A DNA stretch of 64,000 bases from Nakamurella sp. PAMC28650 (GTDB taxonomy: Bacteria; Actinomycetota; Actinomycetes; Mycobacteriales; Nakamurellaceae). Below the pieces are notes generated by a model. That model did no database searches, had not been told where the DNA came from, and worked only from the letters and a program-made list of their open reading frames with translations. The stretch covers positions 5,103,001 through 5,167,000 of the forward strand of contig NZ_CP060298.1 in NCBI RefSeq assembly GCF_014303395.1, written 5' to 3'. Shown one piece after another: positions 23,972 through 55,931 of this stretch. The stretch's first letter is position 1, and every line of letters begins with the position of its first letter. The translations under genes and the position numbers were made by a program.

Positions 23972-23977
23972 ATCCTA
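23972..23977 (-). promoter_or_regulatory. -10 hexamer for the riboswitch-controlled metYX transcript
   Basis: TAGGAT on the minus strand lies a few bases upstream of the aptamer, as expected for a transcript beginning just before it. No clear -35 is seen. Confidence 0.55.
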
Positions 23978-24108
23978 GCGGTCCCCGACCGGCGATGCCC
24001 GCCGACCACGGAAACGACCACCCGGGGATCTCCCGCCCCTGCTCGGAGCCCTCTGCCGCGCCCCATCCCGTGCCCCATCCCCAGCCCCTGCGCCGAGACC
24101 TGCGCCGC

Positions 24109-24774: not shown

Positions 24775-24817
24775 CCCCGCAACCTACCGATTCAGCGGGG
24801 GCCACCTCGAAGGGAGG

Positions 24818-25744
24818 TCAGAGCCCATCGTTGCCGGGGACCACCTGGAGGCTGGCCGGATCCCACAGACCGTAGCGGGGGTTGACCGAGATCCCGGCCG
24901 CTCCCTGGTAGGGCGCCAGCAGCAGCGCCCCGACGTTGAAGAGCGACGACAGACCGGCCAGCGAGCTGAAGGCCGCCGGGGTGAGGTTGGTCGAGATGAC
25001 GGAGCGTCCGGACGTTCGCAAGACCAGGTACCCGCTGGACCCGGGGACGATCACCACGGCCCCCGTCGACGGTTGGTAGAGGCCCGCCGTGCCGGCCGCC
25101 GGCGTCTGCAACAGGCGGTAGACCTTCTTCGGCACGCCATTGGTGGGTCCGACCGCCGCCACCGCTGCATCCATCGAGCCCGGATCGGCGATGAAATGCG
25201 ACCTCAGGCTCACCGCCTCGGCTCGACTGGCGGCCGGTACCCCCTCGGCGGTGACCGCGACGTCGCTCACCGGCGCTCCGGCGGCCGGCAGTGCCTTCAC
25301 CAGCGCGTCGAGTGCGACGGCGTCGTGCAGGACGTCGGCCTCCTTGGCCTTGGGCAACCCGACCTGCAGCGGGAGATTGGGATCGGCGCCCGGGGCGGTG
25401 ACCTGGGCCTGGGCCGCCGCCAATTCGGCGTCGGTGATGACGATGCCCTTCGCCGCGAGCGCCTTTGCGATCAGCGCATGACGTACTGCGAAGGTGATCT
25501 GGGCGCGATTGAAGCTGGCCGTCTCGACGTCGGTCGGCGTGGTCGTGACGTTCTCCTGGGTGAACACCGAAGAGTCGTGCTGGACGGATGCATCTGAGAC
25601 CGAGCCGCCATCGACCAGGTAGGCCGACCCGGCTTCGTTGCCGATCGAGCAGCCCGTGGTCGTCATCAGGGTCAGGCCCACCACCGCGGCTACCCATCGC
25701 TTGCGATGGGACGGGGGACGACCGGTTGTCCAATGCAGGCTCAC
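24818..25744 (-). CDS. SurA-like lipoprotein
   Basis: A 308-residue exported lipoprotein with a basic N-terminus and lipobox TTGC (C32). Residues about 75-140 (FNRAQITFAVRHALIAKALAAK, ITDAELAAAQAQ) resemble the SurA/trigger-factor-like N-terminal chaperone helices annotated beside mfd and mazG in actinobacteria; no PPIase domain is evident. The role is probably envelope protein folding, an inference. The GTG start follows GGAGGTG. mazG follows, and mfd, its usual other neighbour, is 34 kb away. Confidence 0.72.
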   Translation of the reverse strand: MSLHWTTGRPPSHRKRWVAAVVGLTLMTTTGCSIGNEAGSAYLVDGGSVSDASVQHDSSVFTQENVTTTPTDVETASFNRAQITFAVRHALIAKALAAKGIVITDAELAAAQAQVTAPGADPNLPLQVGLPKAKEADVLHDAVALDALVKALPAAGAPVSDVAVTAEGVPAASRAEAVSLRSHFIADPGSMDAAVAAVGPTNGVPKKVYRLLQTPAAGTAGLYQPSTGAVVIVPGSSGYLVLRTSGRSVISTNLTPAAFSSLAGLSSLFNVGALLLAPYQGAAGISVNPRYGLWDPASLQVVPGNDGL

Positions 25745-26179: not shown

Positions 26180-27265
26180 ATGCCCTCTTCCTCCCCCAGC
26201 CACATCGTCAAATCCCTGGTGATGAACCGGCGCTCCGCTCTCCTGCTCGGCCTGGTCAGCGTGCCGGCCGTCGGAGTGCTTTCGATGACCGGCAGCGCCC
26301 AAGCCGATACCTCCCCGGCGATCTCCGTGCTGGACGCTGTTGTCGTACAGAAGGGTCCGATGGCGCCGGTCGTCGGCACTCCGGGCACCTACCGACCCGA
26401 CGAGACGACGACCGGGTGGCGCCCCGTGAGGGCCTCGCTGACCAGCCACGCCGGAGACATCCTCATCACCAAGCCGGGCACCGTGATCGAAGGCCTGTTC
26501 ATCACCGGCCGGGTCTTGGTCCGGGCCGCCAACGTCACCATCCGACAGTGCGAGATCGTGGGAAACGGCTATGCGGGCGGGAACACCGGCCTCGTCGACT
26601 GCAATCACCCGGCGGCTGCAAACGTTGTCATCGAGGACTGCGAACTCCATCAGGGCGTCGAAACCGCCAACGTCTGGCACGACGGGGTCATCGGCCACGA
26701 CTACACCGCCCGCCGCAACCTCGTCTACGACACCGTCGACGGTTTCGGGGCCTACAACAGCTACAGCCCGGGCCAGCCTGCGAACGTGGTGATAGAGGCG
26801 AACTATGTTCGAGAACTTTCCTACTTCAGCCCCGATCCAAACCATTCGGACAACCGCACCCATAACGACGGCATCCAGATCCAGGGCAACGGTGGCATTC
26901 AGATCCTGGGCAATCACATCCGCGGGTATGCCTCCTCGACGGTTGGAACAGGCCCTCAGAATGACCCCTATTTCCCCCTGATCACCGGGCACGTGGTCAC
27001 TTGCACTCCGACTGTCAGCGCCATCACCGGTATCACGGTGGAGAACAACTGGTTCTACGGCGGCGTGTGCGGGTTCATCGCTATCGCCGGGTCCAAGGGT
27101 GCCTCGAACCTCGGGACGATCACCAACAATCGGTTCGGTACCGACATGCGACTGAAGACGCCCATCCAGTTGGACAACACGTTGACCGGCACCTTCTCGA
27201 ACAACGTCTGGGACAACGACGCTGCGACAACTTCCGCCGCGTACTACAAGCCGGGAACGATCTGA
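26180..27265 (+). CDS. secreted right-handed beta-helix protein (paralogue 1)
   Basis: A 361-residue exported protein. RR at residues 17-18 before a hydrophobic stretch and an AQA cleavage site suggest Tat export. The mature part has parallel beta-helix rungs: PGTVIEGLFITG, VRAANVTIRQC, NVVIEDCELHQG, DYTARRNLVYDTVDGFG, NVVIEANYV, HNDGIQIQG. Such folds are typical of polysaccharide lyases and hydrolases, and the conserved THNDGIQIQG with DGFGAYN could be an active or binding site; no family was assigned. It is a paralogue of 31371-32393, sharing these motifs in the same order. ATG 26180 is likely; ATG 26222 is an alternative. It is convergent with the sugar transferase. Confidence 0.75.
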   Translation: MPSSSPSHIVKSLVMNRRSALLLGLVSVPAVGVLSMTGSAQADTSPAISVLDAVVVQKGPMAPVVGTPGTYRPDETTTGWRPVRASLTSHAGDILITKPGTVIEGLFITGRVLVRAANVTIRQCEIVGNGYAGGNTGLVDCNHPAAANVVIEDCELHQGVETANVWHDGVIGHDYTARRNLVYDTVDGFGAYNSYSPGQPANVVIEANYVRELSYFSPDPNHSDNRTHNDGIQIQGNGGIQILGNHIRGYASSTVGTGPQNDPYFPLITGHVVTCTPTVSAITGITVENNWFYGGVCGFIAIAGSKGASNLGTITNNRFGTDMRLKTPIQLDNTLTGTFSNNVWDNDAATTSAAYYKPGTI

Positions 27266-27279
27266 AACCAGGGCCAGGA

Positions 27280-28905
27280 TCAGAACGCCCCGGACGAAGA
27301 GACGACTGCCTTCAACGTCTTCCAGAGGATGACCAGGTCCGAGGTCAGCGACCAGTTCTCGACGTAGTACGTGTCGAGGCGCACTGTGTCTTCCCACGTC
27401 AGGGTCGACCGACCAGAAACCTGCCATAGTCCGGTCATGCCCGGCCGGACGAGCAGTCGCAACCTGGCCTCGCCGTGATAGGTGGCTACCTCACCCAACA
27501 GCGGCGGCCGAGGCCCGACCAGGCTCATGTCGCCCTTGAAGACGTTGATCAACTGAGGCAACTCGTCGAGGCTGAACCGGCGGATGAACTTGCCGACCCT
27601 GGTGATGCGGGGATCATCCTGCATCTTGAACATCGTCGAGTTCCCGGCGTCACGCTGATGTGTGGTCAGTTCGGACAGTCGGGCTTCCGCGTCCACCACC
27701 ATCGACCTGAACTTGATCATCCTGAACGAGTTGCCATTCAGCCCGGCGCGCTCCTGACGGAACAGCACCGGTCCGGGACTGGTGGTCTTCACTGCCATTG
27801 CCACTCCCAGCATCAGCGGGGAAAACAGCCCGACCAGCAGTGCACTGCCGACAGCGTCGAACGAACGCTTCAGAATCCGATTGGCCCCCCGGTAGGTGGG
27901 ACGGTCGACGTGGATGAGCGGGAGCCCTGCGACGGGCTTGGTGTGTACTCTCGGACCGGCGATATTGGTGAGCGCAGGCGCAAGCACCAACTGGATGTCC
28001 GTCTTCTCGAGTTCCCAGCTCAGCCGACGGACGGCAGCCGGACCGAAGGCCGCCGTCGATGTCACGGCGACGGTGTCCGCGCCGTACTGCAGGGCCGTCA
28101 TGGCCACGTCATCGAGCCCACCGAGAACTGGCACCCCGTCAACCGAAACGCGACCGGTGACCGGATCGATGTTGAGGTCGCCCGAGGAAGCGGTCTGGTG
28201 TACGCAGACTCCGAGCACGCCGTAGCCGGCCAACGGTGCTCGCTGGAGATCGGTCAAGAGTTCGCGCACCGTGCGCAGGTTTCCGACGACGAGGACCTTG
28301 GACATGAATCCACCGTTGAGCCGGCGCGCGTGCAACCACCGGCGCCAAGTGAACCTCGACAACAGAAGGGCCATCAGACCGGCTGGCAACATGACCAGCA
28401 CGTAGGCGCGCGGAAGATGCAGGTCGAAGACGTAGGAGCAGATGGCGATGAAGCCGAACAGGCCAAACGAGGTGTTGACCAGTCGCTTGTATTCCTCCGG
28501 ACCGTGCCCGACCACTTCCGGATCCCTCGTACCCCCCCAGTGCAGCGTGACCATCCAGGCAACGGCCACGAACACAGTCATCGCGATGAACGGCAGCCTG
28601 TCCGGGTCCCGGGAGACTCGAGTGGACAGAGTGCCCATGTGGACCAGGTGGGCCCCGACCGCAGCCCACGTGACCCCGATCAGGTCTCCGAAGAACAGTC
28701 GGTAGGCGTATCGGCTCGCCCAGGCCTTGCGCGGGCCGGACCCGGTGGCCGGAGTAGGCACGCTCTGCCACACCGAATCCGCACGGGACGGCTGAACCTC
28801 GGTACCGGGCTGATCATTCGGCGCTGCAGTGACAGCGGGCCTCGCCGTACTGGACCTGGCTGCGTCCGACAGAGGGTCGGTGCGTGACGGAGTAGTGATA
28901 GTCAT
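27280..28905 (-). CDS. polyprenyl-phosphate sugar-1-phosphate transferase (WbaP/CpsE-type)
   Basis: A 541-residue membrane protein that starts repeat-unit synthesis by moving a sugar-1-phosphate from a UDP-sugar to undecaprenyl phosphate. Four helices lie at about residues 75-190, then a CoA-binding-like region (KVLVVGNLRTVRELL), a fifth hydrophobic segment, and the catalytic domain: ILKRSFDAVGSALL, SPGPVLFRQERAGLNG, FRMIKFRSM, LDELPQLINVFKGDMSLVGP and RPGMTGLWQVSGRS. The domain order is that of full-length WbaP-like enzymes. The first sugar (glucose or galactose) cannot be told. It probably primes the polymer built by the 31-53 kb genes. Confidence 0.93.
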   Translation of the reverse strand: MTITTPSRTDPLSDAARSSTARPAVTAAPNDQPGTEVQPSRADSVWQSVPTPATGSGPRKAWASRYAYRLFFGDLIGVTWAAVGAHLVHMGTLSTRVSRDPDRLPFIAMTVFVAVAWMVTLHWGGTRDPEVVGHGPEEYKRLVNTSFGLFGFIAICSYVFDLHLPRAYVLVMLPAGLMALLLSRFTWRRWLHARRLNGGFMSKVLVVGNLRTVRELLTDLQRAPLAGYGVLGVCVHQTASSGDLNIDPVTGRVSVDGVPVLGGLDDVAMTALQYGADTVAVTSTAAFGPAAVRRLSWELEKTDIQLVLAPALTNIAGPRVHTKPVAGLPLIHVDRPTYRGANRILKRSFDAVGSALLVGLFSPLMLGVAMAVKTTSPGPVLFRQERAGLNGNSFRMIKFRSMVVDAEARLSELTTHQRDAGNSTMFKMQDDPRITRVGKFIRRFSLDELPQLINVFKGDMSLVGPRPPLLGEVATYHGEARLRLLVRPGMTGLWQVSGRSTLTWEDTVRLDTYYVENWSLTSDLVILWKTLKAVVSSSGAF

Positions 28906-29166
28906 ACGAGAGCCCGTCTGTCGGGACTGCAGTGCATCATCGATTGCTCCACTTTCGCCGGCACAGGGTTCACTCGAGATCGCCGACGTCGCCCGACACG
29001 CTTACCGACGGTAATTTATTCACCGCCGTCACGATAGCGCGACCCTGCCTAAACGGGAAGAAAACAACCCACCAGTCACCTGTTCGGGCAATTTTTCGTC
29101 ACAGTGAGTGAAAGAGGGCGGACACAGCGGCACGGCGAGTCCCGGGGATTTGGTCGCCGTCCAGAT
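28906..29166 (-). other. leader region of the sugar transferase gene
   Basis: 261 bp with a relatively AT-rich patch (29000-29100). No gene and no recognisable riboswitch. It probably carries the promoter of the sugar transferase gene. Confidence 0.4.
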
Positions 29167-29616
29167 TCAGCCGCTGCTAGCGACCCGAATCTCAGGTTCG
29201 ACCAAGCTCGACAGCACGCGACGTATCACGGTGCTCGACGTGTGGACCGTGTAGGGGAAGTAGACGACCTGGACCCCGGCAGCGGCAAAGTCGGATTCGA
29301 GCTTGGCTCCCTTCGGAGTGCCACGCCAGTCATCACCCTTGAAGATGTGCGTGAAGCGGATGTCTGCCCATGAGTCGAGCTTGTCCGGAGTCATCTCCGC
29401 GTGGACTTCATCCACGAATCGAATGTTCCCGACGATCTCCATACGTTCGGCCAGCGAGATCACGGGCCGTCGCCCCTTGGTCAGTTCGCACATCTCGTCC
29501 GACACGACACCTGCAACGAGATAGTCGCATTGCGACTTCGCTTGACGCAGGATGTTTAGGTGTCCGACGTGGAACAGGTCGTACGCACCAGGGGCGTAAC
29601 CGATACGGACTGCCAC
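29167..29616 (-). CDS. TagD/GCT-like cytidylyltransferase family protein
   Basis: A 149-residue nucleotidyltransferase. The class signature is GAYDLFHVGHLNILRQAK (H16-x-G-H19), followed by VISLAERMEIV, FKGDDWRGTPKG and a terminal SSTVIRR resembling the RTxGISTT motif. Family members activate glycerol 3-phosphate, ethanolamine phosphate or similar with CTP or ATP; this suggests a phospho-alcohol substituent on the polymer. GTG 29616 follows AGGGGA. No transferase for the product was identified here. The longer upstream reading frame is not coding. Confidence 0.85.
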   Translation of the reverse strand: MAVRIGYAPGAYDLFHVGHLNILRQAKSQCDYLVAGVVSDEMCELTKGRRPVISLAERMEIVGNIRFVDEVHAEMTPDKLDSWADIRFTHIFKGDDWRGTPKGAKLESDFAAAGVQVVYFPYTVHTSSTVIRRVLSSLVEPEIRVASSG

Positions 29617-30006
29617 TGTGATTCCCCTACTCGTCGGTTGGTCTTGCCGAGGGGGCAGCCTTGCCCTCCGCCCAGTCAGCCCCGACAACTGACGGCCCAT
29701 CGGATGTGATGGATAATAACCGACCTGGCCCTCCTTGTGCCTGGCGACCACTCCTTCGGGTGAGATGTCCAGGACACATGTCAACCCAGAGTGAGCAATC
29801 AAGTTCTCGTCGTCGACATGTGGCATCTCGACCGAACGGCCCATCGGCATCCGCCCCCACACCTGGAACAGGAGACCAGACGGTCGTTCGCCAATCGGGT
29901 TGGCAACCAAGGTCCAGAGTCCAAGGCAAGGCCGGGTCCCGCGCATGGCTCGGCAGCCGTCAGCCATATTGGTGGCTTGCGAACCGCGGGCCCGGACGGA
30001 GAGACG
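29617..30006. other. divergent intergenic region
   Basis: 390 bp between the cytidylyltransferase and phosphatase genes. It holds an AT-rich GATAATA block (29712-29718) that could serve as a -10 on either strand, and a hairpin-like GAGGG/CCCTC near 29650-29670 in the leader of the cytidylyltransferase. No gene is supported. Confidence 0.45.
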
Positions 30007-30639
30007 TTGACGAAGCAGGACGCACCACCGAGTTTGCGGGTACTGCTGGTGTGCACGGCAAACATCTGCCGTTCGCCCATGGCCGAGTTCCTGATGAAGC
30101 AGGCCGTGCTTGAGCGGTGGGGACGACGGACCGCAGGACAGATCCTCGTCAGGTCGGCCGGTCTCCACGCCCGCGAGGGCGTCTCCATCCATCCCTTTGC
30201 AAGGACCGCCGTCGGTGAGCCGCCCGATCGGGAGGATGACCGACCGCTCGGTGATGCGCGCACGCAGTGGTTCGAGAACTTTCGGAGTCAGAGGGTGACC
30301 GCCGAATTGATCACTGACTCCGATCTCATACTGACTGCGACCAGGGACCATCGCTCTGAAGTCGTCGGTCTTGTCCCTTCCGCCCTCAGGAGGAGCTTCA
30401 CCATCCGCCAGATTGCATCTCTTCTGGTCTCAGCCGAGCCCGTGGACATGAGCGGACCGACGGCCATCGGCACGGCCATCATCGAACGCGTGCAACGAGC
30501 GCGGGCGCACATACCGCCAGGAGGACCCGATGACGACCTGGTCGACCCGATCGGACACCCGATCGAAGTCTTTCAATCTTGCGCTTCCATCATTCGTCGC
30601 AGTGTGGATTCGATTCTCGAAGCCCTGAGGCCCAGCTGA
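30007..30639 (+). CDS. low-molecular-weight protein-tyrosine phosphatase-like protein
   Basis: A 210-residue LMW-PTP. The P-loop CTANICRSP is at 16-24 (nucleophile C16, R22), right after the first beta strand (RVLLV), and a late Asp-Pro (DDLVDPIGHP) is placed as the general acid. Such phosphatases (Wzb) remove phosphate from BY-kinases in polysaccharide export; the likely substrate is the protein at 35032-36516. The start is inferred as TTG 30007, preceded by GGAGAG; an open frame runs further upstream but lacks the fold. It is slightly long for the family because of a middle insertion (residues about 50-90). Confidence 0.82.
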   Translation: MTKQDAPPSLRVLLVCTANICRSPMAEFLMKQAVLERWGRRTAGQILVRSAGLHAREGVSIHPFARTAVGEPPDREDDRPLGDARTQWFENFRSQRVTAELITDSDLILTATRDHRSEVVGLVPSALRRSFTIRQIASLLVSAEPVDMSGPTAIGTAIIERVQRARAHIPPGGPDDDLVDPIGHPIEVFQSCASIIRRSVDSILEALRPS

Positions 30640-31370
30640 TCCGTGGCAGCCGGGATCGGTTACGGGCCGCCCAACTTCCGGCTCGATCCGCCGCCGCGAG
30701 CTGCACTCGGCGTGCAACCAGGCCAACCAGATGCACCGACATCCGATATGTCTGACTTGGGCTAATCCTCGCTGCGGCTATCAGCTTGCCCCAGATAGCC
30801 CGTAGTGGAGATCAAATCCCGGCCATACGCGTCATTTCCACCCTTTTGCGAACCCCCGCTTCACTGAGTCCGTTTGTTACGGAAAGCACTGATGAAACGT
30901 CCAGGTTCACCCTGATAGACCAGCAACCTCGGGTTGGCCCGCATGCGTGACTATAAACGCTAGACCATCAGAGCGTTCACCGCACCGCCGGTGGCTTAGT
31001 TCGGTCGCACATATCCTCGTTGCGAAGACCCAATCCCGCCTCGATCGTGTTAGGAAACATTTCGATAACGCTAGACTTCGTCAGGACCAACGATCGACCT
31101 ACCCACCGGAAATGACTCAGGTGCATCGACAGTCATCTGCTTCGGCTCATCTATTGATCTTGACCCGGGAGACAGCTTGAGTCGTGAATAGACCGGCCTG
31201 ACGTAATCTGTTGCGCTCGAGGTCATTTGTTGCGCCGGAGTTAACTAGCGGTCACGAACACGATCCACTGAACCATCCCCCACGATCCGTTCTTCAGCGA
31301 CGAGGCAGTCGTCTCGTCGTCTGTCTGCGTGCCCCACGACGGTCAACATCAGGACAGGACACACTTCAGC
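30640..31370. other. 731-bp region without a recognisable gene
   Basis: It has lower GC content than the coding parts and short open frames with non-coding composition, the longest forward one (30947-31180) being unconvincing. I see no tRNA, repeat array or riboswitch. It likely carries the promoter and leader of the second beta-helix gene; an unannotated small RNA is possible but not supported. Confidence 0.5.
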
Positions 31371-32393
31371 ATGCAAAAGCGATCCGCCAGACACAGCAGC
31401 TCGACGAGCCTGACCCGGCGCAATGTGCTCCGTTTGGCTTATGCCGCAGTGCCCGCTGCGGCCGCCGTCGCTCTTCCCCGCCTGGTCGGGACCGCGGCAG
31501 CCGCGTCTTATATCAAGCCGGATTGGTCGAATACGGGGATCCCGGTCGGCACGAATCTGACTGTGCACCGCGGTGACATCGTCGTCACGACACCGGGCAC
31601 GGTGATTGATTCCATGGACGTCTACGGCTACATCAAGGTGCGCGCCGCCAACGTGACCATCCGACGCACCCGGGTTCGCGGCACCGGAACTGTTGCATTC
31701 AACACGGCCCTCATCGACTGCAACCATTCCGCCGTAAGCAATGCCGTGATCGAGGACTGCCTGCTGGTCCCTGACTCTCCATCGGTGTGGGTGGACGGAG
31801 TCATCGGTAAGGAGTTCACTGCCCGATGGAACAACGTCTACAACACCTGCGATGGCTTCGGTGTCTACAACGCCCAAAACTGGGCCGGCGCATGCAACGT
31901 CACCATCGAGAGCAACTTCATCCATGATCTGGTCTTTTTCTCCAAAGATCCCAACCACTCCAACGGGACCCACAACGATGGCATTCAGATTCAGGGTGGA
32001 TCGAATGTCAACATTCTCGGAAACAATATTCTCATGTTCTATTCGCGAGGGAAGGGGACGCTCGACTACGCGTCTCGCGCCGGTGGCAATGGAATCCTGG
32101 TCGGTGCAAACCTTGCCTCGGTCACCGCCAGCCAAATCACCAACAACTGGCTCAACGGTGGTATCGACGGCATGTATATCCTTCGCGGGAAGTCATCGAG
32201 CATGAGATTCGGATCTGTTTCCGGCAACCGTTTCGGTCGCGATCAGTTCGGATTTTCCGGCGGTGCGTCGACCTACCAGATCAGAGTGCAATCGGGCGTG
32301 ACGTTCAACAACGCACTGACCGCCAACTACTGGCAGAATTCGGGTCTACCCCTGGCTGTGAGCCGAACAGGCGGAATCCGCTACGACTACTGA
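31371..32393 (+). CDS. secreted right-handed beta-helix protein (paralogue 2)
   Basis: A 340-residue exported protein. The N-terminus has a Tat motif (SLTRRNVLRL, RR at 16-17), a hydrophobic segment and an Ala-rich cleavage region near 45. The beta-helix rungs match paralogue 1: PGTVIDSMDVYG, VRAANVTIRRT, NAVIEDCLLV, EFTARWNNVYNTCDGFG, NVTIESNFIHDL, THNDGIQIQGG. The N-terminal region before residue 60 is much shorter than in paralogue 1. It could act as a lyase or hydrolase on the locus polysaccharide. ATG 31371 follows an AGGAC-type sequence. It is convergent with the acyltransferase gene. Confidence 0.76.
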   Translation: MQKRSARHSSSTSLTRRNVLRLAYAAVPAAAAVALPRLVGTAAAASYIKPDWSNTGIPVGTNLTVHRGDIVVTTPGTVIDSMDVYGYIKVRAANVTIRRTRVRGTGTVAFNTALIDCNHSAVSNAVIEDCLLVPDSPSVWVDGVIGKEFTARWNNVYNTCDGFGVYNAQNWAGACNVTIESNFIHDLVFFSKDPNHSNGTHNDGIQIQGGSNVNILGNNILMFYSRGKGTLDYASRAGGNGILVGANLASVTASQITNNWLNGGIDGMYILRGKSSSMRFGSVSGNRFGRDQFGFSGGASTYQIRVQSGVTFNNALTANYWQNSGLPLAVSRTGGIRYDY

Positions 32394-32426: not shown

Positions 32427-34529
32427 CTAACCCGCAGAGGGCATGCCTACCTTGATCAGCGCGGAGCCTAACGAATGGGACAGCGAACGGGCGAATGTGG
32501 CCGTCATGTGGTTGTCGTCCAGGTAGACCAAGACCTTGCCGATGACTGCGCTGCACATTCCTGCCGTGCAGAACGAACCACTCACGTCGACCAGCTTGGC
32601 ATCAGGCGTGAGCGCGGCGGCCGCGCCCATCAGATCAAATTTCTGCGACGGTCCCTGGGCGAAGTCACACTTGGGTGATGCGCCGTTGGCATAGACGCAT
32701 GGCGGGATATCTCCCTTTCCGGCGTTGTCGGGCTGAGGAATGTCGCGAAGTGCGATCACTTCGCTGCCCGCCGACAACAACTTCGACCACGCCTTCGCAA
32801 TGCCTTCGGCAACCCCCGGGACCTCGGAACTCCTGAAGTTTCCGGCTGGACTCCGCCCACTCACGAGGATGAATTTGAGATGGGCGACCGGCAACAGGGA
32901 GCTCAGCCTGCTGTTCCACAGCCCACATGCGTTGGAGGTGATGGTCGCCGTCAGAGTGCAGCCCGACATCAGATAGGTGGTTAATTGCCAGTTGTTGGCA
33001 TCTGCCACCGGGATGAGCGCAGGTAGCCACTGGGTCGCGTGGGAGTCGCCCACCAGTGCCACGCTGACTGCGTCGGCCCGACTGGAGCCGAAAGTGCAGG
33101 TGATGACATCCGACCTAGAGACTCGCTGCTGACAGCGTTCGTAGGGGAAGTCGTCGGTCGCGATGAGCGGACTGGGCACGATCTCCGTTAGAGGGACGGT
33201 TGCGGCCGAACAGCTGGAATCACCGTTCATCACCTCGGCACCGAAGCAGGACGGCACGTTCGCACTCGTCGCCGCGAGGGCGGCGCGTGCGGACGATACG
33301 GGCCCACGCAACGACAGCCAGCCCGATCCGGCTAAGACCACGACCAACGCCATGAAGGCAGCCCCAGCAACGTAGACGAATCGATCTCGCTGCAGCTGCG
33401 CACGCCAGGCGACGGGCCCACGGCCGCTACGCGCATCACGGATCGGGTCTTCGATCAACAACTTCGAAACTGCGGCCAAGACAATTGCGACTAGAAGGAC
33501 GATGGCCTTGGCCGGGGTCGTCAGGGCCATCCCGGTGACGGCGGGCACCAGCACGATCAGCGGCCAATGCCACAAGTACAGCGAATACGAGATGTCGCCG
33601 AGGTACTGCACCGGCTGAAGGGCAAAGAGCCGCTGCGGCCCGATCCATGCCGATGTTGAGCCCCCGGCGATCACCGCTGCCGCTCCGAGGACGGGTATGG
33701 AGGCAGCCGACCCCGGGAAGCTGGTATCACCCGAGTAGACCAGAGACGACCAGGCGATGAGGGCCAGGCCCATCCAGGACAAGGCAGCACGAGCGGGGGG
33801 CGAGACCTTGATGTGTTTGATGCCGACCGCTAGGGCTCCGCCTACCCCGAACTCCCACAGACGGGCGAAGATATCGAAGTAGGCGAACTTGGCGTCGGCT
33901 GCGGTGGATAGTACGGAGTAGGCCAGGCTGCCCCCGATCAGAACCAAAAGGAGTGTCGCGACGGCCTTCGTACGTCTGGCCCTGAACATCAAACCCGTGC
34001 CGAGAAGCAGAATCGGCCAAATGATGTAGAACTGCTCCTCCACGGACAAGGACCAGTAGTGCTGGACGGGGCTGGCTCCGGCGCCGGCGGCAAGGTAGTC
34101 GGTTGAACTCGAGGCCAAGGACCAATTTTCGAAGTACAGGCCGCTGGCCACTATCTCTCGGAGGTAGAGCTCCCAATTCACTCTCGACACCAGTGTGAGC
34201 GTCAAAATCGCAGTAAGCACCAGGACGACCAGTGCAGCAGGGAGGATCCTGACGATTCGCCGCAGATAGAAGTCGCTCAGCGACGCTCCCAGACTGCGGG
34301 CACCAGGTGCGTTTCGCAGGATGTGACCCGTCATGAGGAAGCCCGATATGACGAAGAACACGTCGACACCGATGAACCCACCGCTGAGGCGGGTCGGCCA
34401 CAGGTGATATCCGACGACCAAAAGCACCGCCAAGGCTCGAAGAGCCTGGATCTGGGTCAACAGGCCTGGTCTCGTCTCGGCCACCAACGAGTGCCGGTTC
34501 CGAGCCTTTGGCGCGACGATCTCGGTCAT
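32427..34529 (-). CDS. acyltransferase-3 / SGNH O-acyltransferase (OafA-like), copy 1
   Basis: A 700-residue membrane O-acyltransferase. The N-terminal AT3 domain has about ten helices (IQALRALAVLLVVGYHLWP, GGFIGVDVFFVISGFLMTG, SPVQHYWSLSVEEQFYIIWP, ISYSLYLWHWPLIVL); the C-terminal periplasmic SGNH domain (about 430-700) has GDSHATQW and LDDNHMT, giving the Ser, Asp and His. It would O-acetylate a glycan at the cell surface, as OafA does. The start is taken as ATG 34529, which fits the short cytoplasmic N-terminus; ATG 34586 is possible. It shares architecture with copy 2, but the sequences differ, so different sugars or positions are likely. Confidence 0.9.
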   Translation of the reverse strand: MTEIVAPKARNRHSLVAETRPGLLTQIQALRALAVLLVVGYHLWPTRLSGGFIGVDVFFVISGFLMTGHILRNAPGARSLGASLSDFYLRRIVRILPAALVVLVLTAILTLTLVSRVNWELYLREIVASGLYFENWSLASSSTDYLAAGAGASPVQHYWSLSVEEQFYIIWPILLLGTGLMFRARRTKAVATLLLVLIGGSLAYSVLSTAADAKFAYFDIFARLWEFGVGGALAVGIKHIKVSPPARAALSWMGLALIAWSSLVYSGDTSFPGSAASIPVLGAAAVIAGGSTSAWIGPQRLFALQPVQYLGDISYSLYLWHWPLIVLVPAVTGMALTTPAKAIVLLVAIVLAAVSKLLIEDPIRDARSGRGPVAWRAQLQRDRFVYVAGAAFMALVVVLAGSGWLSLRGPVSSARAALAATSANVPSCFGAEVMNGDSSCSAATVPLTEIVPSPLIATDDFPYERCQQRVSRSDVITCTFGSSRADAVSVALVGDSHATQWLPALIPVADANNWQLTTYLMSGCTLTATITSNACGLWNSRLSSLLPVAHLKFILVSGRSPAGNFRSSEVPGVAEGIAKAWSKLLSAGSEVIALRDIPQPDNAGKGDIPPCVYANGASPKCDFAQGPSQKFDLMGAAAALTPDAKLVDVSGSFCTAGMCSAVIGKVLVYLDDNHMTATFARSLSHSLGSALIKVGMPSAG

Positions 34530-35031
34530 GATCCCCGTCACCAGCCTTCCTCGAGAATTTGCGACCTCGCTGCGATAACCGGCCATGGGCGCACCGCGGT
34601 CGTTCAGCGGGAGCGCGGCGTCCGTTTTGACGGTGAGGATCGATGTATGTTAGCAGTCGATGTTATCGGGCCATCCGTGTGATCAACGGAGTGAAGCATC
34701 TGCCCGATTGGGTGAATGGGGATGCCCTTCGCCTCCGCAATGGCTACGATTTGTGACTGGACGAGTTGATCAGTTGCGCCTGGCGACCGGGGGTCTCTGC
34801 ATGGGTCGCGCGGGATCGCGGGTGGTGACACACCCGGTACAGCGGCGCCGGGCCGCCGGATCTCGGTCTGCTTGGTCTTGAGGACCTGTTCGATCCGCAG
34901 CACACGGTGCTCAACTCACAGAGTCGGTACTGTTCAGCTGCAAAAGTCCACAGTGGCCCCCGAGTAGGGGGCCGAACTTACGGGCGGGGGCCACCTTGCT
35001 CTCGCGGTCGCGACGGAAGGCGGCGTCAGGT
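34530..35031. other. divergent intergenic region before the BY-kinase gene
   Basis: 502 bp between the first acyltransferase and the Wzz/BY-kinase gene, with no supported gene. Its right part carries the alternative hairpins described at 34953-34994. Confidence 0.5.
34953..34994 (+). promoter_or_regulatory. mutually exclusive hairpins before the BY-kinase gene
   Basis: GTGGCCCCC (34953-34961) can pair with GGGGGCC (34967-34973, 5-nt loop) or with GGGGGCCAC (34986-34994, 9 bp). The start codon lies 38 bp later. If transcribed this is an attenuator-like arrangement; if not, it is a GC-rich operator. No transcription start is known. Confidence 0.5.
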
Positions 35032-36516
35032 ATGGCGGTCATGAATCTTCGGGGCTACCTCAGGGCGATCCGGAAGTACTGGATGCTCGTGCTTCTCCTC
35101 ACAGTCCTGGGGACCCTGGCAGCAACCGGCCTCACGCTGAGCACCGATCCCAAGTACGCGAGCACGGTGACCTTCTTCGTTTCGAGTCAGACCAGCAGCA
35201 GCCAGACTGCTCTGCAGGCCGACCAGTTCGCACAGCGTCGCATCAACTCCTACGCCGGGGTAATGGTTAGCGACCGGATGGCCGACCTCATCATCAAGAA
35301 AGCAAATCTGAGTTTGACCCCGGCCGAGGTGAAGAGCGAGATCAGTGCCACGACTGATGTCAATACCGTTCTGCTCACCGCAACGGTCATCGACACATCA
35401 CCTGACCGATCGTTGGCCATCGCGAATGCGATCTCCACTGAACTCAATGGCGTCGTGAACGGGTTGGACAATCCCGGGTCGACCAAGACCACAACTTTCC
35501 TGAACGCGATCACCGGTCCGACGCTGAACACGACCCCGGTGTCACCGAAGAAGACGCTCAACATCGGCCTCGGATTTCTGGTCGGGTTGGCCCTGGGGGT
35601 CTCCGCCGCCATCGTCCGAGAGCTGATGGATGTCACCGTACGTACCGCTGACGTGATGCAGACCCTGTCCAAGCGGCCTGTCCTGGCCACAGTCGCGCTC
35701 GATGCGGCGACGGCCAAATCACCAGTGTTGGTTCGCACGACCGTCAGATCCCCTCGAGGCGAGGCTTTCCGCCAACTCCGCACAAGTCTCAAGTTCATCC
35801 ACGTCGACCAGCCACTGAAGGTCGTCGTGGTGTCCTCCTCTGTCGCGTCCGAGGGTAAATCGCTGACCGCGGCCAACCTGGCTCTGGTTTTCGCAGAAGC
35901 GGGACAACGGGTGCTGCTGATCGAGGCAGACCTTCGCCAGCCTCGCGCGGCGGACTACCTCGGTCTCGAACGTGCCGTGGGACTGAGCAACGTGCTGGCC
36001 GGGGAACTCGGGGTCGACGACGTCCTGCAACCCTGGGGAGACAGCGGACTCACCCTGCTGGCCAGCGGTTCCATCCCGCCGAACCCCTCCGAGCTGCTTG
36101 GTAGCAATGCGATGGCAGACCTGATGGTCGCCTTGCGAGCTCGGTTCGACATGATTCTCGTCGATTCGCCCCCGGTCCTGCCCGTGACGGACGCGGTCGT
36201 CCTGTCCGCTGTGGCGGACGGCATCCTGATGGTGGTCCACTACGGGAGAACCACCCGCGCGCAGTTCACCTCGGCAATCACCGCCTTGGATGCGGTCGAT
36301 GCCAAGCTGATTGGAACGGTGCTCAACATGGCGCCGGTCAAGGACATTCCCAGCGGGTATGGAGGCTACCGGTACGCCGAGGAAGCGAAGATCCCGGCCG
36401 CGGCGACGAAGAAGAGGACGCAAGCGGCCGTCACGACGCCCACTCCCGACTCAGTGCGACGACGACGCGCCACGGAAGACCTACCGACCAAGACAGAGTC
36501 GCCTACCCGAAACTGA
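35032..36516 (+). CDS. Wzz/BY-kinase polysaccharide co-polymerase (Wzc/CapB-like)
   Basis: A 494-residue inner-membrane protein. Residues about 1-210 are a Wzz domain with two helices (near 20-40 and 180-205) around an extracytoplasmic loop; residues about 230-450 are a BY-kinase. Walker A is VASEGKSLTAANLA (K276), Walker A' VLLIEADLRQP, and Walker B MILVDSPPV. Tyrosines Y443, Y446 and Y448 form a small cluster at the C-terminus, a likely autophosphorylation site. Chain length and export would respond to phosphorylation, with the phosphatase at 30007 as partner. The start may be ATG 35032 or 35041. It is convergent with the methyltransferase. Confidence 0.92.
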   Translation: MAVMNLRGYLRAIRKYWMLVLLLTVLGTLAATGLTLSTDPKYASTVTFFVSSQTSSSQTALQADQFAQRRINSYAGVMVSDRMADLIIKKANLSLTPAEVKSEISATTDVNTVLLTATVIDTSPDRSLAIANAISTELNGVVNGLDNPGSTKTTTFLNAITGPTLNTTPVSPKKTLNIGLGFLVGLALGVSAAIVRELMDVTVRTADVMQTLSKRPVLATVALDAATAKSPVLVRTTVRSPRGEAFRQLRTSLKFIHVDQPLKVVVVSSSVASEGKSLTAANLALVFAEAGQRVLLIEADLRQPRAADYLGLERAVGLSNVLAGELGVDDVLQPWGDSGLTLLASGSIPPNPSELLGSNAMADLMVALRARFDMILVDSPPVLPVTDAVVLSAVADGILMVVHYGRTTRAQFTSAITALDAVDAKLIGTVLNMAPVKDIPSGYGGYRYAEEAKIPAAATKKRTQAAVTTPTPDSVRRRRATEDLPTKTESPTRN

Positions 36517-39630: not shown

Positions 39631-41142
39631 TCATTTTCCATGGGTACTCACGAACGGCCGGAACGGCAACGTGGTCGACTCGTCGGTCACAGGATCCGCT
39701 GCTACCGGCTCGGCTTCAGCACCGCGGTGCGTGGAGGCGAGCGCTGCTCCGAGGCAGAACAGGCCCAATGACGAACAGGACGGCCAAGAAAACCAGTCGA
39801 AGATCAGGGAGTTGGCGACGACCACCACGACAGCGCCACGCCAAAGCCAGTTCCGACCGAAGAAGGATTCCACGCACAGAGCGCTGAACGTGACCAGGGC
39901 GACCAATCCACCCTGCGAGAGCATCAGCACGAACTGGTTGTCCACGACGTTGAAACCATCCGTCTGTAGCAGACCTGCGTTGAACAGACGCTGGGTGGAG
40001 CCATAACCGTTGCCGATGACTGCCGCGGCGAGCGACTGACCGCCCAGCAATTGACCGAAAGCGCCATAGGCGGCGATCCGGTGGGTGTAGGAGCCCGACG
40101 CCGCAAAATTCGTGATCGCTTCCGAGCTGAACAGGCCCGCCAAGGCTGCGATCACGACTACGCCGAGAAAAAGCAGCGAGACTGCGACCAACCTGGGCGC
40201 CGACAGCTTTCGCACGCCGAAGAACAGCAGGAGCCCGACGGCGAGGATCAGACTGTTCCGGCTGCCGGAGAACACCAGACCGACAAGTAGCAGCATGATG
40301 ATCAGGACCTTGGGCAGCCAGGTCAGCGGTAGCACTCTCAGCACCAGGACAAGGCCGACGGCCAATAGGAATCCGAGCGGCAGAGGGTGACCGAGCGAAG
40401 CCTGTGAGCGCTCGATCGCAGACCCCAGAATGGCGTTCGTCAGAGGTGCCACGTTGCCGAGGGAGTCCAAGGCAGCGGGGGCCCACAGATGGGTCGGGAA
40501 GACGAAGGGCTCCGCTATCGCCATGACGCTCTGAGCGGCAGCCAGCGCAACGATGGCCCCACAGACCCGATTCAGTCCAGCGGGCAACATTCGGCGGGCC
40601 AGGAAGAAGCAACTCACCCCGGGAACCACGGATCGACACAGAAGCAGGAGCACTCCACCTCTTGAATCGAACGCGACAGTAGCTGCGAGGAGACCGAAAC
40701 TCATCACCATGAGCGGCAGACGCCCGTTCCCCCCAGCGGCGCCGCTCCCGATCAAGCCCGTCAGCGCGATCACCGCGGTGATCAGGATGAAGATCAACAG
40801 CTCCCGCGACACGATCCCGGACAGCCGGGTGATCGGGAACGCAACGAAGATGGTCAACTCGACGACGATGGCCAATTCGATCCTGGTTTGGCCCTTCAAC
40901 CGCGGACTGATGACGACCAGGATGCCGGCGGCCAGCGCCATTCCGGACAGACACAGTCCGACGTCGTCGACGTTGGTACCCAGGAATGTGGTCAGGGAAC
41001 TGGCGAACTTGGCCCCCAGTGCCGTCCCGGCGGCCGTGAAATAGACGATGCCACCGAGGGCGATGAGAATCCAGTTGCGCCCGAGCCTGCGCGGTACCGC
41101 CGAGTCCTCGACGTTGGCACCCTCAGCCTGCCTTTCAGCCAT
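39631..41142 (-). CDS. O-antigen ligase/polymerase-like membrane protein (Wzy candidate)
   Basis: A 503-residue protein with about eleven to twelve hydrophobic segments and one large extracytoplasmic loop (about residues 280-400, including FSGSRNSLI and the conserved-looking AASGSYTHRIAAYGAFGQLLGG). This is the topology of WaaL/Wzy-C proteins that polymerise or ligate repeat units. Sequence conservation in the family is low, so the assignment rests on topology and locus. ATG 41142 follows TGGAG and overlaps the glycosyltransferase stop by 8 bp; a longer frame to 41238 is less likely. Confidence 0.8.
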   Translation of the reverse strand: MAERQAEGANVEDSAVPRRLGRNWILIALGGIVYFTAAGTALGAKFASSLTTFLGTNVDDVGLCLSGMALAAGILVVISPRLKGQTRIELAIVVELTIFVAFPITRLSGIVSRELLIFILITAVIALTGLIGSGAAGGNGRLPLMVMSFGLLAATVAFDSRGGVLLLLCRSVVPGVSCFFLARRMLPAGLNRVCGAIVALAAAQSVMAIAEPFVFPTHLWAPAALDSLGNVAPLTNAILGSAIERSQASLGHPLPLGFLLAVGLVLVLRVLPLTWLPKVLIIMLLLVGLVFSGSRNSLILAVGLLLFFGVRKLSAPRLVAVSLLFLGVVVIAALAGLFSSEAITNFAASGSYTHRIAAYGAFGQLLGGQSLAAAVIGNGYGSTQRLFNAGLLQTDGFNVVDNQFVLMLSQGGLVALVTFSALCVESFFGRNWLWRGAVVVVVANSLIFDWFSWPSCSSLGLFCLGAALASTHRGAEAEPVAADPVTDESTTLPFRPFVSTHGK

Positions 41143-43315
41143 GGTGCGCTCCGCTCCAGACGACGGTCCCGACCCTGCCGGAAGAGTCGGTGGAGGGCTC
41201 TCTGTGGATTCTGCTGAGTCTCCGCCGTCCGGACACATCGACCCTCGCGTACTCGGAGTAGACCAACCCGATGGCCCCGATCAACATCCCGCCTCCCCTT
41301 GCCGCAGTCCGCGCCCCCCGAGCCTGAAGACTGTCCGACCGGCCGATCAGGCCGATGAGATAGCGGGCCGATCCACCGGTGAGACGGACGCCGCCCTCGG
41401 CGAGCAGCGACAGCCGCGTCCTGGACCGTTCACGGACGGACCGGCCGAGGAATAGTGAGACCCTGCTCCAAGAATTCCCACTTCGTAGTGCTCGTTGGAG
41501 AACCCAGTGCCGGGTGAGCCTGTGTGCTGGAACGATATCGATGACCACGGCCTCGTCGCACCAGATCAGGCGACCTCCGCGTTCGGTGATCTGACGGGTG
41601 AACAGGGTGTCTGAACCTCCCGCGAGTCCGAACTTCTCGTTGAAGCTCAAACCCCAGGCCCTGACGACCGCCAGACTCAGCAGGAGATTGTTGGTGGCAG
41701 CCACCTCCACCGGTGTTCCGGTGACCAACCTCCGCCGACGGAAGAACTGACCTGCCTCTACCCAGGGCTCCATGGCCGATTCGAACTCGGACACCACCGG
41801 ACCGACCACACCGACGCCGCCGAACCGCTCGTGAGTTGCGAGCATCTCACCCAGCCATCCGTGAACGGGTCGCTCGTCGTCGTCGATGAAGATCAAGGCG
41901 TCTGCATCGCCGGACTCGGCCAACGCCCGATTCCTCGCCGCAGCGATTCCAGGTTGCCGCTCATGCGTGTATCGCACCCGGTCTGCGTGGAAGGCGTCTA
42001 CGGTCGACGCACCGCTTCCGTCCGGATCGTTGTCCACCACCAGAATCCCGACCGTGCAGTCGGCGGGATGTTCCTGTTCCAGCAACTCGACCAGCAGCGC
42101 GGCGAGGCTGTCCAGTCGCCGGTAGGTCAGCACCGCAATCAACACCCTGCGATCGTTCGACTTCGTGACCATGTTTTCCTCCCGCTCCCCCACTGCTGAC
42201 TCCGATCGTCGTGAGGCTGTCAACACGTCCTCGAGGAACGACCCGAAGCGTGGCGCTACGGCCTCCACGGAGAACAGCTCATTCGCCCTGTTCTCCGCAG
42301 ATCTTCCCAGATCAGCGCGACGATCAACCGACTCCAAGGAAAGAAGGGCACTGCTCAGGGATCCGGCATCACCAGGTGGTACCAGAACGCCGGCCGATCC
42401 GATGGCCCACCGGACGGGCGGGGTGTCCGATGCCACGACCGCTCGTCCGGCAATCATCGCGTCCACCAGTTTGGCCGGCAACTGAGCACGTGCCCACCCG
42501 CCGGCGTGGCTGGGAATCGCGATGATGTCGGCGGCCGCCACCAGCGCAAGTCCGTCTGGCAGGCTTGTCGTCCCCAGCCATGACTCCCAGGGCTTGGCAT
42601 CGGACGGGGGATCCGCCGTCACCTCGAGCCGAAACCCGCGGGGTGCCAGTTCTTCCACGGCGGCCCGGAGGATCTCGATACCCTTGTGACCGCGGGGGGA
42701 TCCGACGAACCGCACCGTCGGAGGCCCGTCGGTCATGCCGGCCGTCTTGAGCATCCGCGGCCTGACATGCGGGACCACCGTGCCGGGGTACCACTGTCCC
42801 AGCGTCGGATTGCTGATGATCGTCGGCACCGTCCGGGCCAGACGGCGTAGCCGCAACAAGTCCCGGTACCGGCTCTTCAGCGCCCATCTCGCCATGCGCT
42901 CGTACCACGCAAGCCAACTCGTACGGACCTCGAGATCCGGGTCGTCCACATCGAGTACGAGTAGGCGTTGCTCCTCGGAGCAGATGGTGAGACCGATCCC
43001 GAAACTTGTCGGCAGCGGCTTGACCGCAATCACCAGATCGGCCCACCGCACGTGCTCACGGACCAATTCGAGGCGTGCCTTCGCGTCAGAGGACTCCGGG
43101 ACGCGACAGTCGACGGCGAACTCTCCGACGGCGAGCGGCGCCCACAGCATGTTGCCCTTGATGCCGACCACCCGGGTCTGGATGCCCAGTTCATTGGCCA
43201 GCAGCCACAAGCAGAACGTGCGTCCCAAGGAGTTGTTCTCGAAATTCGGCGTGATCAGGGTCAGTCGGCCGACCGTCGCACCGTGGTCAGACAATGCAGA
43301 ACCCTCAGCGTGCAT
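41135..43315 (-). CDS. GT4-GT2 fusion glycosyltransferase
   Basis: A 726-residue fusion. Residues about 10-370 are a GT-B (GT4-like) domain: ITPNFENNSLGRTFCLWLLA, VRFVGSPRGHKGIEIL and AKLVDAMIAGRAVVASD; residues about 390-680 are a GT-A (GT2) domain: VLIAVLTYRRLDSLAALL, VVDNDPDGSG, ARNRALAE and DALIFIDDDERP (the DxD-like metal site). They probably add two sugars. Unusually, the junction has a well placed ribosome binding site (GGGAGGA) and ATG at 42172 (residue 382), so the GT2 half could also be made alone (345 residues). It overlaps the flippase stop by about 11 bp; the exact start is uncertain. Confidence 0.85.
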   Translation of the reverse strand: MHAEGSALSDHGATVGRLTLITPNFENNSLGRTFCLWLLANELGIQTRVVGIKGNMLWAPLAVGEFAVDCRVPESSDAKARLELVREHVRWADLVIAVKPLPTSFGIGLTICSEEQRLLVLDVDDPDLEVRTSWLAWYERMARWALKSRYRDLLRLRRLARTVPTIISNPTLGQWYPGTVVPHVRPRMLKTAGMTDGPPTVRFVGSPRGHKGIEILRAAVEELAPRGFRLEVTADPPSDAKPWESWLGTTSLPDGLALVAAADIIAIPSHAGGWARAQLPAKLVDAMIAGRAVVASDTPPVRWAIGSAGVLVPPGDAGSLSSALLSLESVDRRADLGRSAENRANELFSVEAVAPRFGSFLEDVLTASRRSESAVGEREENMVTKSNDRRVLIAVLTYRRLDSLAALLVELLEQEHPADCTVGILVVDNDPDGSGASTVDAFHADRVRYTHERQPGIAAARNRALAESGDADALIFIDDDERPVHGWLGEMLATHERFGGVGVVGPVVSEFESAMEPWVEAGQFFRRRRLVTGTPVEVAATNNLLLSLAVVRAWGLSFNEKFGLAGGSDTLFTRQITERGGRLIWCDEAVVIDIVPAHRLTRHWVLQRALRSGNSWSRVSLFLGRSVRERSRTRLSLLAEGGVRLTGGSARYLIGLIGRSDSLQARGARTAARGGGMLIGAIGLVYSEYARVDVSGRRRLSRIHREPSTDSSGRVGTVVWSGAHHG

Positions 43316-44834
43316 GGCGTGATCCCGCGGAGACGACCGCTGCCCGGCTCCTGCTGAAACGGGAAGGCAGCATAATGACGATACGCCGCCCGACACGGCG
43401 GGCGGCGACCCTGTGCACCGTCAACAGTACGACGGCGAAGATCACGACGAATACGGCGGCGCCGATCGCCAGCACCATCCAGGTCGCGATCGGCAATCTC
43501 GAGACGGCGAAGTAGCCCGCAGCGGCCCACAGGCTTGGATGGACCGACGGGAGCAGGGCGTGGAGCTGACCGCTGATGGAGACACCCGTCAGCCGCCGCT
43601 GAATGATCAGCAGCATGGGCGTGACGACCACCCCCGATACCGCATAACCGACGGCGACGCCGAACACCCCGAACTGCAGGCCGATGACGATCCCGGCCAC
43701 CTGGATGGCCGTCGAGACGAGTTCGAATCGTAGGTTCATGGACGCATTGCCGGTGGCCTTCATGAGCGCCGGCGTGATGTAGTAGATGGTCTCCCTCGCG
43801 CCGGCCAGCGCCAGCACGGATAGCAGCGGGGCGGTCGGGTCCCAGAACGGGCCCAGAACGGTCGTGACGAGTTGCGGCGCCGCACAGGCCAGCAGAGTCA
43901 TGGTCGGTACTGCCGCCATGGCCACCATCTCGGTCGACTTCACCAGGTTCTCGGCCAGCAGGTCGCGTCGATGGGCGATCTTCGCGAACACGGGGAACAT
44001 CACCCTGTTCACGGTCTGCCCGACCATCTGGATGGGTATCACCAATACGCGGTAGGCCATGCTGTAGAACGACAACGCCGTGATGCCCAGAAAGCGGCCG
44101 ACGAGGATGTTGTCGGTGTTCCGCGCGAAGTAGGCGACCCCGTTGGTCAGGAACACCCGAAATCCGAAGGGCAGCACCTCACGGAGGGCACCGACGGCGA
44201 CGTTCGGCGCGGGACCGCGGCTGGCCCTCCACAGCAGCACCGCGATCACCAGGTCGGTGATCAACGTCTGGAAGATGACGGCGTGGTAGTCGGCACCGAG
44301 GAGCGCAGACAGCACTCCGGCGATGGTCCCGCAGGCCGCCCCCCCGACGTCGGCGACCGCGATGCTGCGGAAGTTCAGGCTCCGGGAGAGCATCGAGCGG
44401 GGGGTGATCGCAAGTGCCTTGAGCACAAGGCCGATACCGAGGACCCTCAGGACGCTCTCGAGCGCGGGTGTCGAGAAGAAGTGCCCGAGATCGGGCGCGA
44501 CGATCCAGGTCACACCAGCCAGAACGACAGAGATGAGCACGTTGAAGGTGGCGACCGCGCCAGGGGCCTCAGGGGCGAGATCCTTGCGTTGGATCAAGGC
44601 AGACGCCATGCCCTGATCGAGCACCAGGGTCGTCAGCGTGACGTAGATCGTCGCGGCGCTGATCACACCGTAAGAGCTGGGTCCCAGTATTCGTGCGAGC
44701 ACCAAAGCGCACACCATCTGGAGGCCCTGTCGGCCGACCACTGCTCCCAGACTCCAGGACACCGCATTCGAAGCCTTGCGGCCGGAGAACGACTCATCCA
44801 GTTCGGTTGCGTGGCCGCTCTGGACCGCCACCAT
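43305..44834 (-). CDS. MOP-family polysaccharide flippase (Wzx-like)
   Basis: A 509-residue protein with about fourteen hydrophobic segments. It matches the MOP exporter group with SWSLGAVVGRQGLQMVCAL, LGPSSYGVISAATIYV, FNVLISVVLAG and NRVMFPVFAKIAHRRDLLAE, which is typical of lipopolysaccharide biosynthesis flippases. It should turn lipid-linked repeat units across the membrane. ATG 44834 follows CTGGAG; an upstream open frame adds a poor N-terminus. It heads a five-gene set of flippase, GT fusion, polymerase, acyltransferase and methyltransferase with short gaps or overlaps. Confidence 0.88.
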   Translation of the reverse strand: MVAVQSGHATELDESFSGRKASNAVSWSLGAVVGRQGLQMVCALVLARILGPSSYGVISAATIYVTLTTLVLDQGMASALIQRKDLAPEAPGAVATFNVLISVVLAGVTWIVAPDLGHFFSTPALESVLRVLGIGLVLKALAITPRSMLSRSLNFRSIAVADVGGAACGTIAGVLSALLGADYHAVIFQTLITDLVIAVLLWRASRGPAPNVAVGALREVLPFGFRVFLTNGVAYFARNTDNILVGRFLGITALSFYSMAYRVLVIPIQMVGQTVNRVMFPVFAKIAHRRDLLAENLVKSTEMVAMAAVPTMTLLACAAPQLVTTVLGPFWDPTAPLLSVLALAGARETIYYITPALMKATGNASMNLRFELVSTAIQVAGIVIGLQFGVFGVAVGYAVSGVVVTPMLLIIQRRLTGVSISGQLHALLPSVHPSLWAAAGYFAVSRLPIATWMVLAIGAAVFVVIFAVVLLTVHRVAARRVGRRIVIMLPSRFSRSRAAVVSAGSRHAR

Positions 44835-45386
44835 GATGTCTCCAGCAGGTGTCGCCCGGCCCGCTCCAGGGGATTCCGAGGCGGTCGAGTTGATGTTCGA
44901 TGCGCGGTGCCTGCTCAACGGTCTCCCTTCATCAGCACGCCCACTGCCTCCGAGATGCCGTCGCGCATTCACCCGGCGCAGGCCTGGCCAAGGCCAGTTC
45001 CGCGTCCGCGACGGCACTGCTTCACATCTCCTGTCACCAAGCGAGGACCTTCTCGAATGCGACTGCGATCTGCTCGGCGTCACGCGGTGCGACCATTTGC
45101 GCCGAACGATATCCCGCAGCGGCCAGCCGGATGAAACCCTCCGGTCGGAAAGCGCTCTTGAGCAGTGCTGCCGTCCTGCGCAATGAGACCGACGCATCGT
45201 GGGTCTTCAACCCGCCCACCCCAGTGGTCCGCCCATCGGGAGGGTCACCGTCGGGGCGCCATCCCTGCTCGACGAACCCTCCGCGCGTTCCCGCATCACC
45301 CGACCCGAACCGTAGAGTTCGGCACCCAGGTGCGCCACCAGGACGGATCGTCCCGGCTGCGCACCCCAGGTGTTTCGATTCCGAAC
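44835..45386 (-). other. gap with a short possible gene or remnant
   Basis: 552 bp between the large secreted protein gene and the flippase gene. A minus-strand frame ending at 45034 gives a protein-like end (TAALLKSAFRPEGFIRLAAA, then GYRSAQMVAPRDAEQIAVAF), with plausible helical composition and a GTG start region around 45250. It may be a small protein or the tail of a lost glycosyltransferase. No ribosome binding site is clear. Confidence 0.4.
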
Positions 45387-53125: not shown

Positions 53126-55918
<2,793 letters not shown>

Positions 55919-55931
55919 CTGGGGACTACAC

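Follow-up and report, generated by a model that had tools for sequence, protein, structure and literature searches.

What would two copies of a beta-helix protein do in an exopolysaccharide (EPS) locus? The question is raised by a pair of genes, here called BH1 and BH2, in a stretch of 64,000 nucleotides from Nakamurella sp. PAMC28650; this whole stretch is the window referred to below. The answer that we prefer, and hold with moderate confidence, is that the two proteins are exported, duplicated EPS-locus enzymes that modify the cell's own EPS. The genes are these:

26180..27265, plus strand: BH1, a right-handed beta-helix protein of 361 aa with twin arginines in its N-terminus; the helix domain starts near 26390
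31371..32393, plus strand: BH2, a paralogue of BH1, 340 aa, also with N-terminal twin arginines; the helix domain starts near 31500

Both are long open frames and both have relatives in other genomes. That our own gene finder calls them is no independent evidence, because both were among the 11 window genes on which it was trained. A GAGG lies shortly 5' of the ATG at 26180, the most likely start of BH1, and an inner ATG at 26222 has no such site. Aligned pairwise, the proteins are 42% identical across 287 aa (E 3e-70). A sequence-only reading of this DNA had taken them for paralogues from six shared motifs; the likeness extends well beyond these—VRAANVTIR, DGFG and HNDGIQIQG are indeed found in both, in the same order—and the E-value rules out the chance sharing of motifs. 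The reading was also right that the N-termini have diverged: the alignment begins after dissimilar N-terminal parts, and the main difference between the proteins is the region ahead of the helix, where BH1 has some 25 additional residues. Searches of the organism's own genome, with BH1 and with the family profile, return these two copies only, and in the tree the two are sisters (support 99/88).

Between BH1 and BH2 lie a priming transferase, whose gene converges with BH1, a cytidylyltransferase and a low-molecular-weight phosphatase, just as had been read from the sequence. Judged by its predicted genes, the region is a Wzx/Wzy-type EPS locus:

27280..28905, minus strand: priming polyprenyl glycosylphosphotransferase (Bac_transf; TIGR03025)
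29167..29616, minus strand: cytidylyltransferase-like protein (start chosen by our own gene finder)
29977..30639, plus strand: low-molecular-weight protein tyrosine phosphatase (start chosen by our own gene finder)
32427..34586, minus strand: acyltransferase (AT3) with an SGNH domain
35032..36516, plus strand: Wzz / tyrosine autokinase, for chain-length control
39631..41142, minus strand: Wzy-like polymerase (26.5 bits with Wzy_C, whose cut-off is 31.7)
43305..44918, minus strand: Wzx flippase (Polysacc_synt_3)
55884..57251, plus strand: protein of the UDP-glucose/GDP-mannose dehydrogenase family, a possible source of a uronic acid precursor

The wider locus also holds glycosyltransferases and AT3-SGNH acyltransferases, two of the latter in all. 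Several further genes of the window deserve mention. A polysaccharide deacetylase is encoded at 20039-20968, about 5 kb to the left of BH1. At 45387-50914 a gene for a large protein (1575 aa, with LamG and PKD domains) is accompanied by a small lipoprotein-like one; the large protein has relatives near family members in four other loci (L025, L028, L029 and L101), and is perhaps a matrix protein that partners the family. A phosphoenolpyruvate carboxylase gene (53021-55918) sits inside the EPS region and adjoins the UDP-sugar dehydrogenase gene, an arrangement that recurs with a relative of this carboxylase in another locus (L024), and a DUF4012 protein is encoded downstream of the dehydrogenase, at 57413-59155.

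The family to which BH1 and BH2 belong, one of apparently secreted right-handed beta-helix proteins, has no name. No Pfam or NCBIfam model scores above its cut-off for either. The Beta_helix model PF13229, whose cut-off several relatives do pass, gives BH1 19.9 bits against a cut-off of 25.9 and has no match to BH2 in a Pfam search, and the NosD match is far under its cut-off. Phmmer searches of the PDB sequences with BH1 and with BH2 yield no matches at E ≤1, and a profile finds weak matches only, to GH87 (E 0.008) and to the GH28 exopolygalacturonase 2uve (E 0.022). PHROGs has nothing for BH2 and one chance-level match for BH1, and a phage collection has nothing for BH2 or for two of the phage-borne relatives described below (those of L154 and L156). 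That no known family could be recognized at first reading is thus confirmed. A literature search, with subscription journals mostly outside its coverage, returned no paper on the family's function.

The family is nonetheless widespread. Profile searches, own genome included, find members in 9 of the 17 genomes of the genus, in 42 of the 298 genomes sampled from the order and in 6 of 296 from the phylum. BH2, used as a query against a plasmid collection, retrieves 11 Sinorhizobium records and one from Nonomuraea, itself one of the Actinomycetota, and six viral contigs—predicted viruses, from IMG/VR—also carry members. One scan of contigs by pattern confirmed a single relative among 69 matches, on a Polyangiaceae contig, so spread was measured by the genome searches instead. 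One family gene in a draft genome (L031:1645-2540) is broken across several frames, either by decay or by sequencing error.

Does the family as a whole belong with EPS genes? We compared 53 family neighborhoods of 6 to 20 kb with 20 random stretches, drawn from 11 of the family genomes, and with 20 stretches around other PF13229 proteins, using Bac_transf, Wzx, Wzy, Wzz and tyrosine kinase as markers and searching for them identically in family and control stretches. The 53 loci are part of the search hits and are not independent, several coming from one genome, and among them at least one marker is present in 35, against 1/20 random and 1/20 other beta-helix stretches (p 2e-6 each); at least two are present in 28, against 1/20 and 0/20. 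An earlier marker set with fewer Wzy and Wzz seeds scored 31/53 against 1/20 random. Two of the family stretches adjoin one another (L095 and L096), some end at contig ends, and two (L122 and L125) were retained although the family model has no match there. The other beta-helix controls, from 8 genomes, were hand-picked from 42 PF13229 rows after exclusion of rows in family stretches and, in G001, G002, G013 and G573, of non-family proteins lying close to a family copy; with these last beta-helix proteins counted as linked, the control figure becomes 5/24 (Fisher p 0.0004). An EPS-linked copy occurs in 20 of 22 genera, and strict EPS markers are missing from 18 of the 53 family loci.

Genome G001 has a single copy at BH1's spot: the genes to its left match the window genes of 15417-24818 in order, and Bac_transf follows. 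On a Sinorhizobium meliloti plasmid two copies are found next to genes for a sugar transferase, for Wzz and for CpsD/CapB, of which the sugar transferase and CpsD/CapB are annotated, and Wzz and the second copy come from our own gene finder.

Phages carry the family too, in varied surroundings. On one viral contig (L156) the copy comes after tape-measure, minor tail and head-fibre-like genes and before an endolysin gene; on another (L157) it is fused to a GDPD domain and adjoins the terminase gene; on a third (L158) it lies near portal and head genes; and on a fourth (L159) it is fused to PKD domains, the single neighbor scanned having no match. The remaining two contigs (L154 and L155) have a copy with a signal peptide. 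On L154, which has integrase, RecE and RusA-like genes, this member lies at 5899-6903 and is possibly a lysogenic-conversion gene. In the tree the signal-peptide copy groups with chromosomal copies of two genomes of this genus, G004 and G012 (100/99), and the L156 and L157 copies group with that of G001 (98/93). Because phage copies group with chromosomal ones, exchange of family members between phages and hosts is likely. Might BH1 and BH2, then, be nothing but cargo, depolymerase-like genes left behind by phages and lodged by chance in a variable surface locus? The groupings just described lend themselves to such an account, that of the integrase/RecE phage included, but we think it very improbable. 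Chance lodging sits poorly with EPS-linked copies in nearly every genus, with the G001 copy at the same spot beside Bac_transf, though the tree sets that copy with two phage proteins and apart from BH1, and with the N-terminal signals and intact frames of the pair. A more elaborate idea is that the family passes back and forth, cutting capsules for phages from beside their virion genes, the form of one integrase-bearing phage being secreted, and that duplicated bacterial copies edit the cell's own coat and hence the phage receptor, BH1 and BH2 being a domesticated, diversifying pair. This we regard as quite doubtful.

If the proteins modify EPS, as we prefer to think, what in their structure might do so? 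AlphaFold predicts both domains to be beta-helices (pLDDT 81.0/81.9, pTM 0.86), and at Z ≥8 VIA aligns the two models with 428/686 and 436/679 chains, many of them solved beta-helices, which upholds the fold first read from the sequence. In VIA, alginate lyase 6kfn from Paenibacillus FPU-7 heads the list for either model, at Z 21.8 for BH2, where it is tied, and 22.3 for BH1, 1.4 above the next. The lists are closely spaced, however: GH87, phage tailspikes, AlgE, 8ja4 and RbmB follow just behind, with AlgG in the BH1 list, and the adhesin PfbA and NosD are included as well. Foldseek is weak, with two matches at E ≤0.001, both PL6 alginate lyases and both with TM-scores <0.4. The structure search proposed in the sequence-only reading delivered mostly carbohydrate-active matches. 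The predicted fold names no reaction.

A putative active site can be picked out all the same, around the sequence H-N-D-G-I-Q:

26861..26878, plus strand: H-N-D-G-I-Q codons of BH1 (H214, D216 and Q219 in the numbering of the 347-aa form), which with D173 form a putative active site
31971..31988, plus strand: H-N-D-G-I-Q codons of BH2 (H201, D203 and Q206), which with D161 form a putative active site

Going by the predicted strands, D161 and D203 would occupy equivalent places on neighboring rungs, H201 standing two residues ahead of D203. Among 73 non-redundant members (BH2 numbering), H201 is kept in 71, D203 in 60, D161 in 55 and Q206 in 54. The full set is present in 50, BH1 and BH2 included, and is invariant in two of the alignments (A4 and A5), phage members included; it is incomplete in 23, among which are EPS-linked members and a Sinorhizobium copy. 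The set could mark an active site or a binding site. Asparagine 286, probably a structural residue, is kept in 72 of the 73, and since H201 is conserved no better than this, the H-x-D-G-x-Q motif may be structural also, a consideration that has lowered our confidence in the preferred explanation slightly. One relative (L129:9547-11721) has two family domains in tandem in one protein, and the first lacks the H-x-D motif.

This pattern of conservation suits another explanation, that the proteins are non-catalytic matrix or adhesin proteins whose helix binds EPS at the cell surface, duplicates having different anchors. Relatives can indeed carry such anchors: a domain scan of ten found CWB2 wall-binding repeats in two and malectin, CBM60 and DUF7910 in one each. 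In locus L094 (6292-10992) two neighboring copies are identical over their last 423 residues and different before these, and in the longer (780 aa), the one copy that the domain scan covered, CWB2 repeats precede the identical part—as if one form were anchored and the other free. PfbA, too, is among the top structural matches. We consider this explanation unlikely for BH1 and BH2 themselves, in which a Pfam scan finds no wall- or carbohydrate-binding module and in which the D/H/D/Q set is intact.

Two well-known classes of beta-helix enzyme can be set aside. In GH28 polygalacturonases a DD pair lies on the next rung; BH1 and BH2 have no DD after HNDGIQ and no Pfam match to GH28, and membership is rejected. 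AlgG-type membership is likewise rejected, on the absence from both proteins of the exact DPH of the AlgG/AlgE motif DPH(D), where they have DPNH instead.

The preferred explanation has, nevertheless, a narrower form in which uronate chemistry is at work: the pair would be C5-epimerases or lyases of the kind that AlgG, AlgE, PL6 and RbmB represent, and their substrates would be uronic acids that derive from the dehydrogenase of the locus. The presence of that gene speaks for it, as do the PL6 lyases at the head of the Foldseek list, albeit weakly, the standing of 6kfn in both VIA lists, with 8ja4, AlgE and RbmB close, and, from what is given in a passage on AlgG, the choice of a histidine as the proposed base there (PMC4444821). 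Yet a sugar dehydrogenase falls inside the stretch examined in just 13 of the 53 family loci—it may lie elsewhere in others—and it is therefore not clear that uronate chemistry applies throughout the family, and when the structures are superposed the AlgG catalytic motif (D317, row 4nk8) falls on other rungs, some 55–65 residues from the family's histidine by an estimate from end points. We rate the narrower form as possible, though on the unlikely side.

Comparison with known systems shows where the pair fits. RbmB, a Vibrio cholerae VPS lyase (PDB 9ozl), is a secreted beta-helix protein of a matrix cluster and, according to a passage in PMC11637428, cuts the cell's own EPS; it aligns at Z 20.4 in VIA (2.7 Å, 228 aligned), but identity in structural alignments is 12–14% and there is no match at the sequence level. 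AlgG is periplasmic and encoded within alginate clusters, as a passage in PMC4444821 has it, and the mannuronan C5-epimerases AlgG and AlgE share the beta-helix at Z ~20. With 6kfn and the PL6 lyases, at 8–17% identity, the likeness is one of fold. Phage tailspikes and capsule depolymerases (e.g. 6f7d, Z 21.7) have the same fold, and some family members adjoin phage virion genes, but BH1 and BH2 each have a single domain and an apparent export signal, and are not parts of a virion. Paenibacillus mucilaginosus G78 has a similarly arranged pair in its EPS cluster, two successive entries of 528 and 558 aa described as 'right-handed parallel beta-helix repeat-containing proteins' and followed by a pyruvyl transferase and a flippase (PMC9956331, Table 6); a Serratia plymuthica table has one beta-helix entry after rfbP (PMC11264596). 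Both are likened to BH1 and BH2 by description only, and the passages concerned give no function for these entries. The suggestion that secreted polysaccharide-acting proteins of this kind would be new to such loci is not borne out, given AlgG, RbmB and the Paenibacillus pair. The colanic acid locus, too, encodes a beta-helix protein, WcaM; a literature search on WcaM in this capacity found nothing.

Both proteins are apparently secreted. Their short N-termini contain twin arginines (MNRRSALLLG and LTRRNVLRLA), as had been seen at the outset, and export by the Tat pathway is likely; the Tat model TIGR01409 matches BH2 alone, at 13.8 bits against a cut-off of 16.7 (E 0.056), so of the Tat claim the twin arginines stand and the route is a matter of likelihood. 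Tat export is not a hallmark of the family: a rough signal scan of the 73 members, which depends on starts from our own gene finder, sorts them as 10 RR, 12 lipobox-like, 47 Sec-like and 4 other.

Duplication is a recurrent habit of the family. At least two copies are present in 20 of the 53 loci (L031, with its one broken gene, is not counted as a pair), and copies from the same genome cluster in the tree for G004, G014, G434, G109, G054, G016, G002 and G424, which indicates that duplication has recurred. The G016 copies are on separate contigs, and the stretches from G014, G424 and G002 are without strict EPS markers. The pairs of L098 and L114, by contrast, are not sisters. G372 and G449 have an older pair in common. 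The idea that within such a pair one protein trims and the other binds does not fare well, since BH1 and BH2 have the same D161/H201/D203/Q206 set and many pairs elsewhere are lineage-specific duplicates. The broader idea, that they are a secreted pair acting on polysaccharide, is probably correct, on the combined strength of the locus association, the fold neighbors and the wall- and carbohydrate-binding modules of some relatives.

How, then, might these proteins work as EPS-modifying enzymes? Exported, probably via Tat, they would meet the cell's own newly made EPS outside the membrane. The chain would be stretched lengthwise on the helix, across a site made up of the neighboring D-G rungs and H-x-D-G-x-Q, and there would either be cut, by a hydrolase or lyase, or have its sugars altered, by an epimerase. 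Cutting we favor over epimerization because relatives adjoin phage virion genes. The EPS would be shortened, remodeled or released as a result, much as RbmB and AlgG do it. Point mutants in the H-x-D-G-x-Q motif would put the enzyme idea directly to the test. If the idea is right, a widespread, unnamed family would be a recurrent part of Wzx/Wzy loci in Actinomycetota and Sinorhizobium, and would supply enzymes suited to the EPS that each strain itself makes. Enzymes of this sort are of importance in biofilm release, in the production of defined polysaccharides and in the recognition of hosts by phages.
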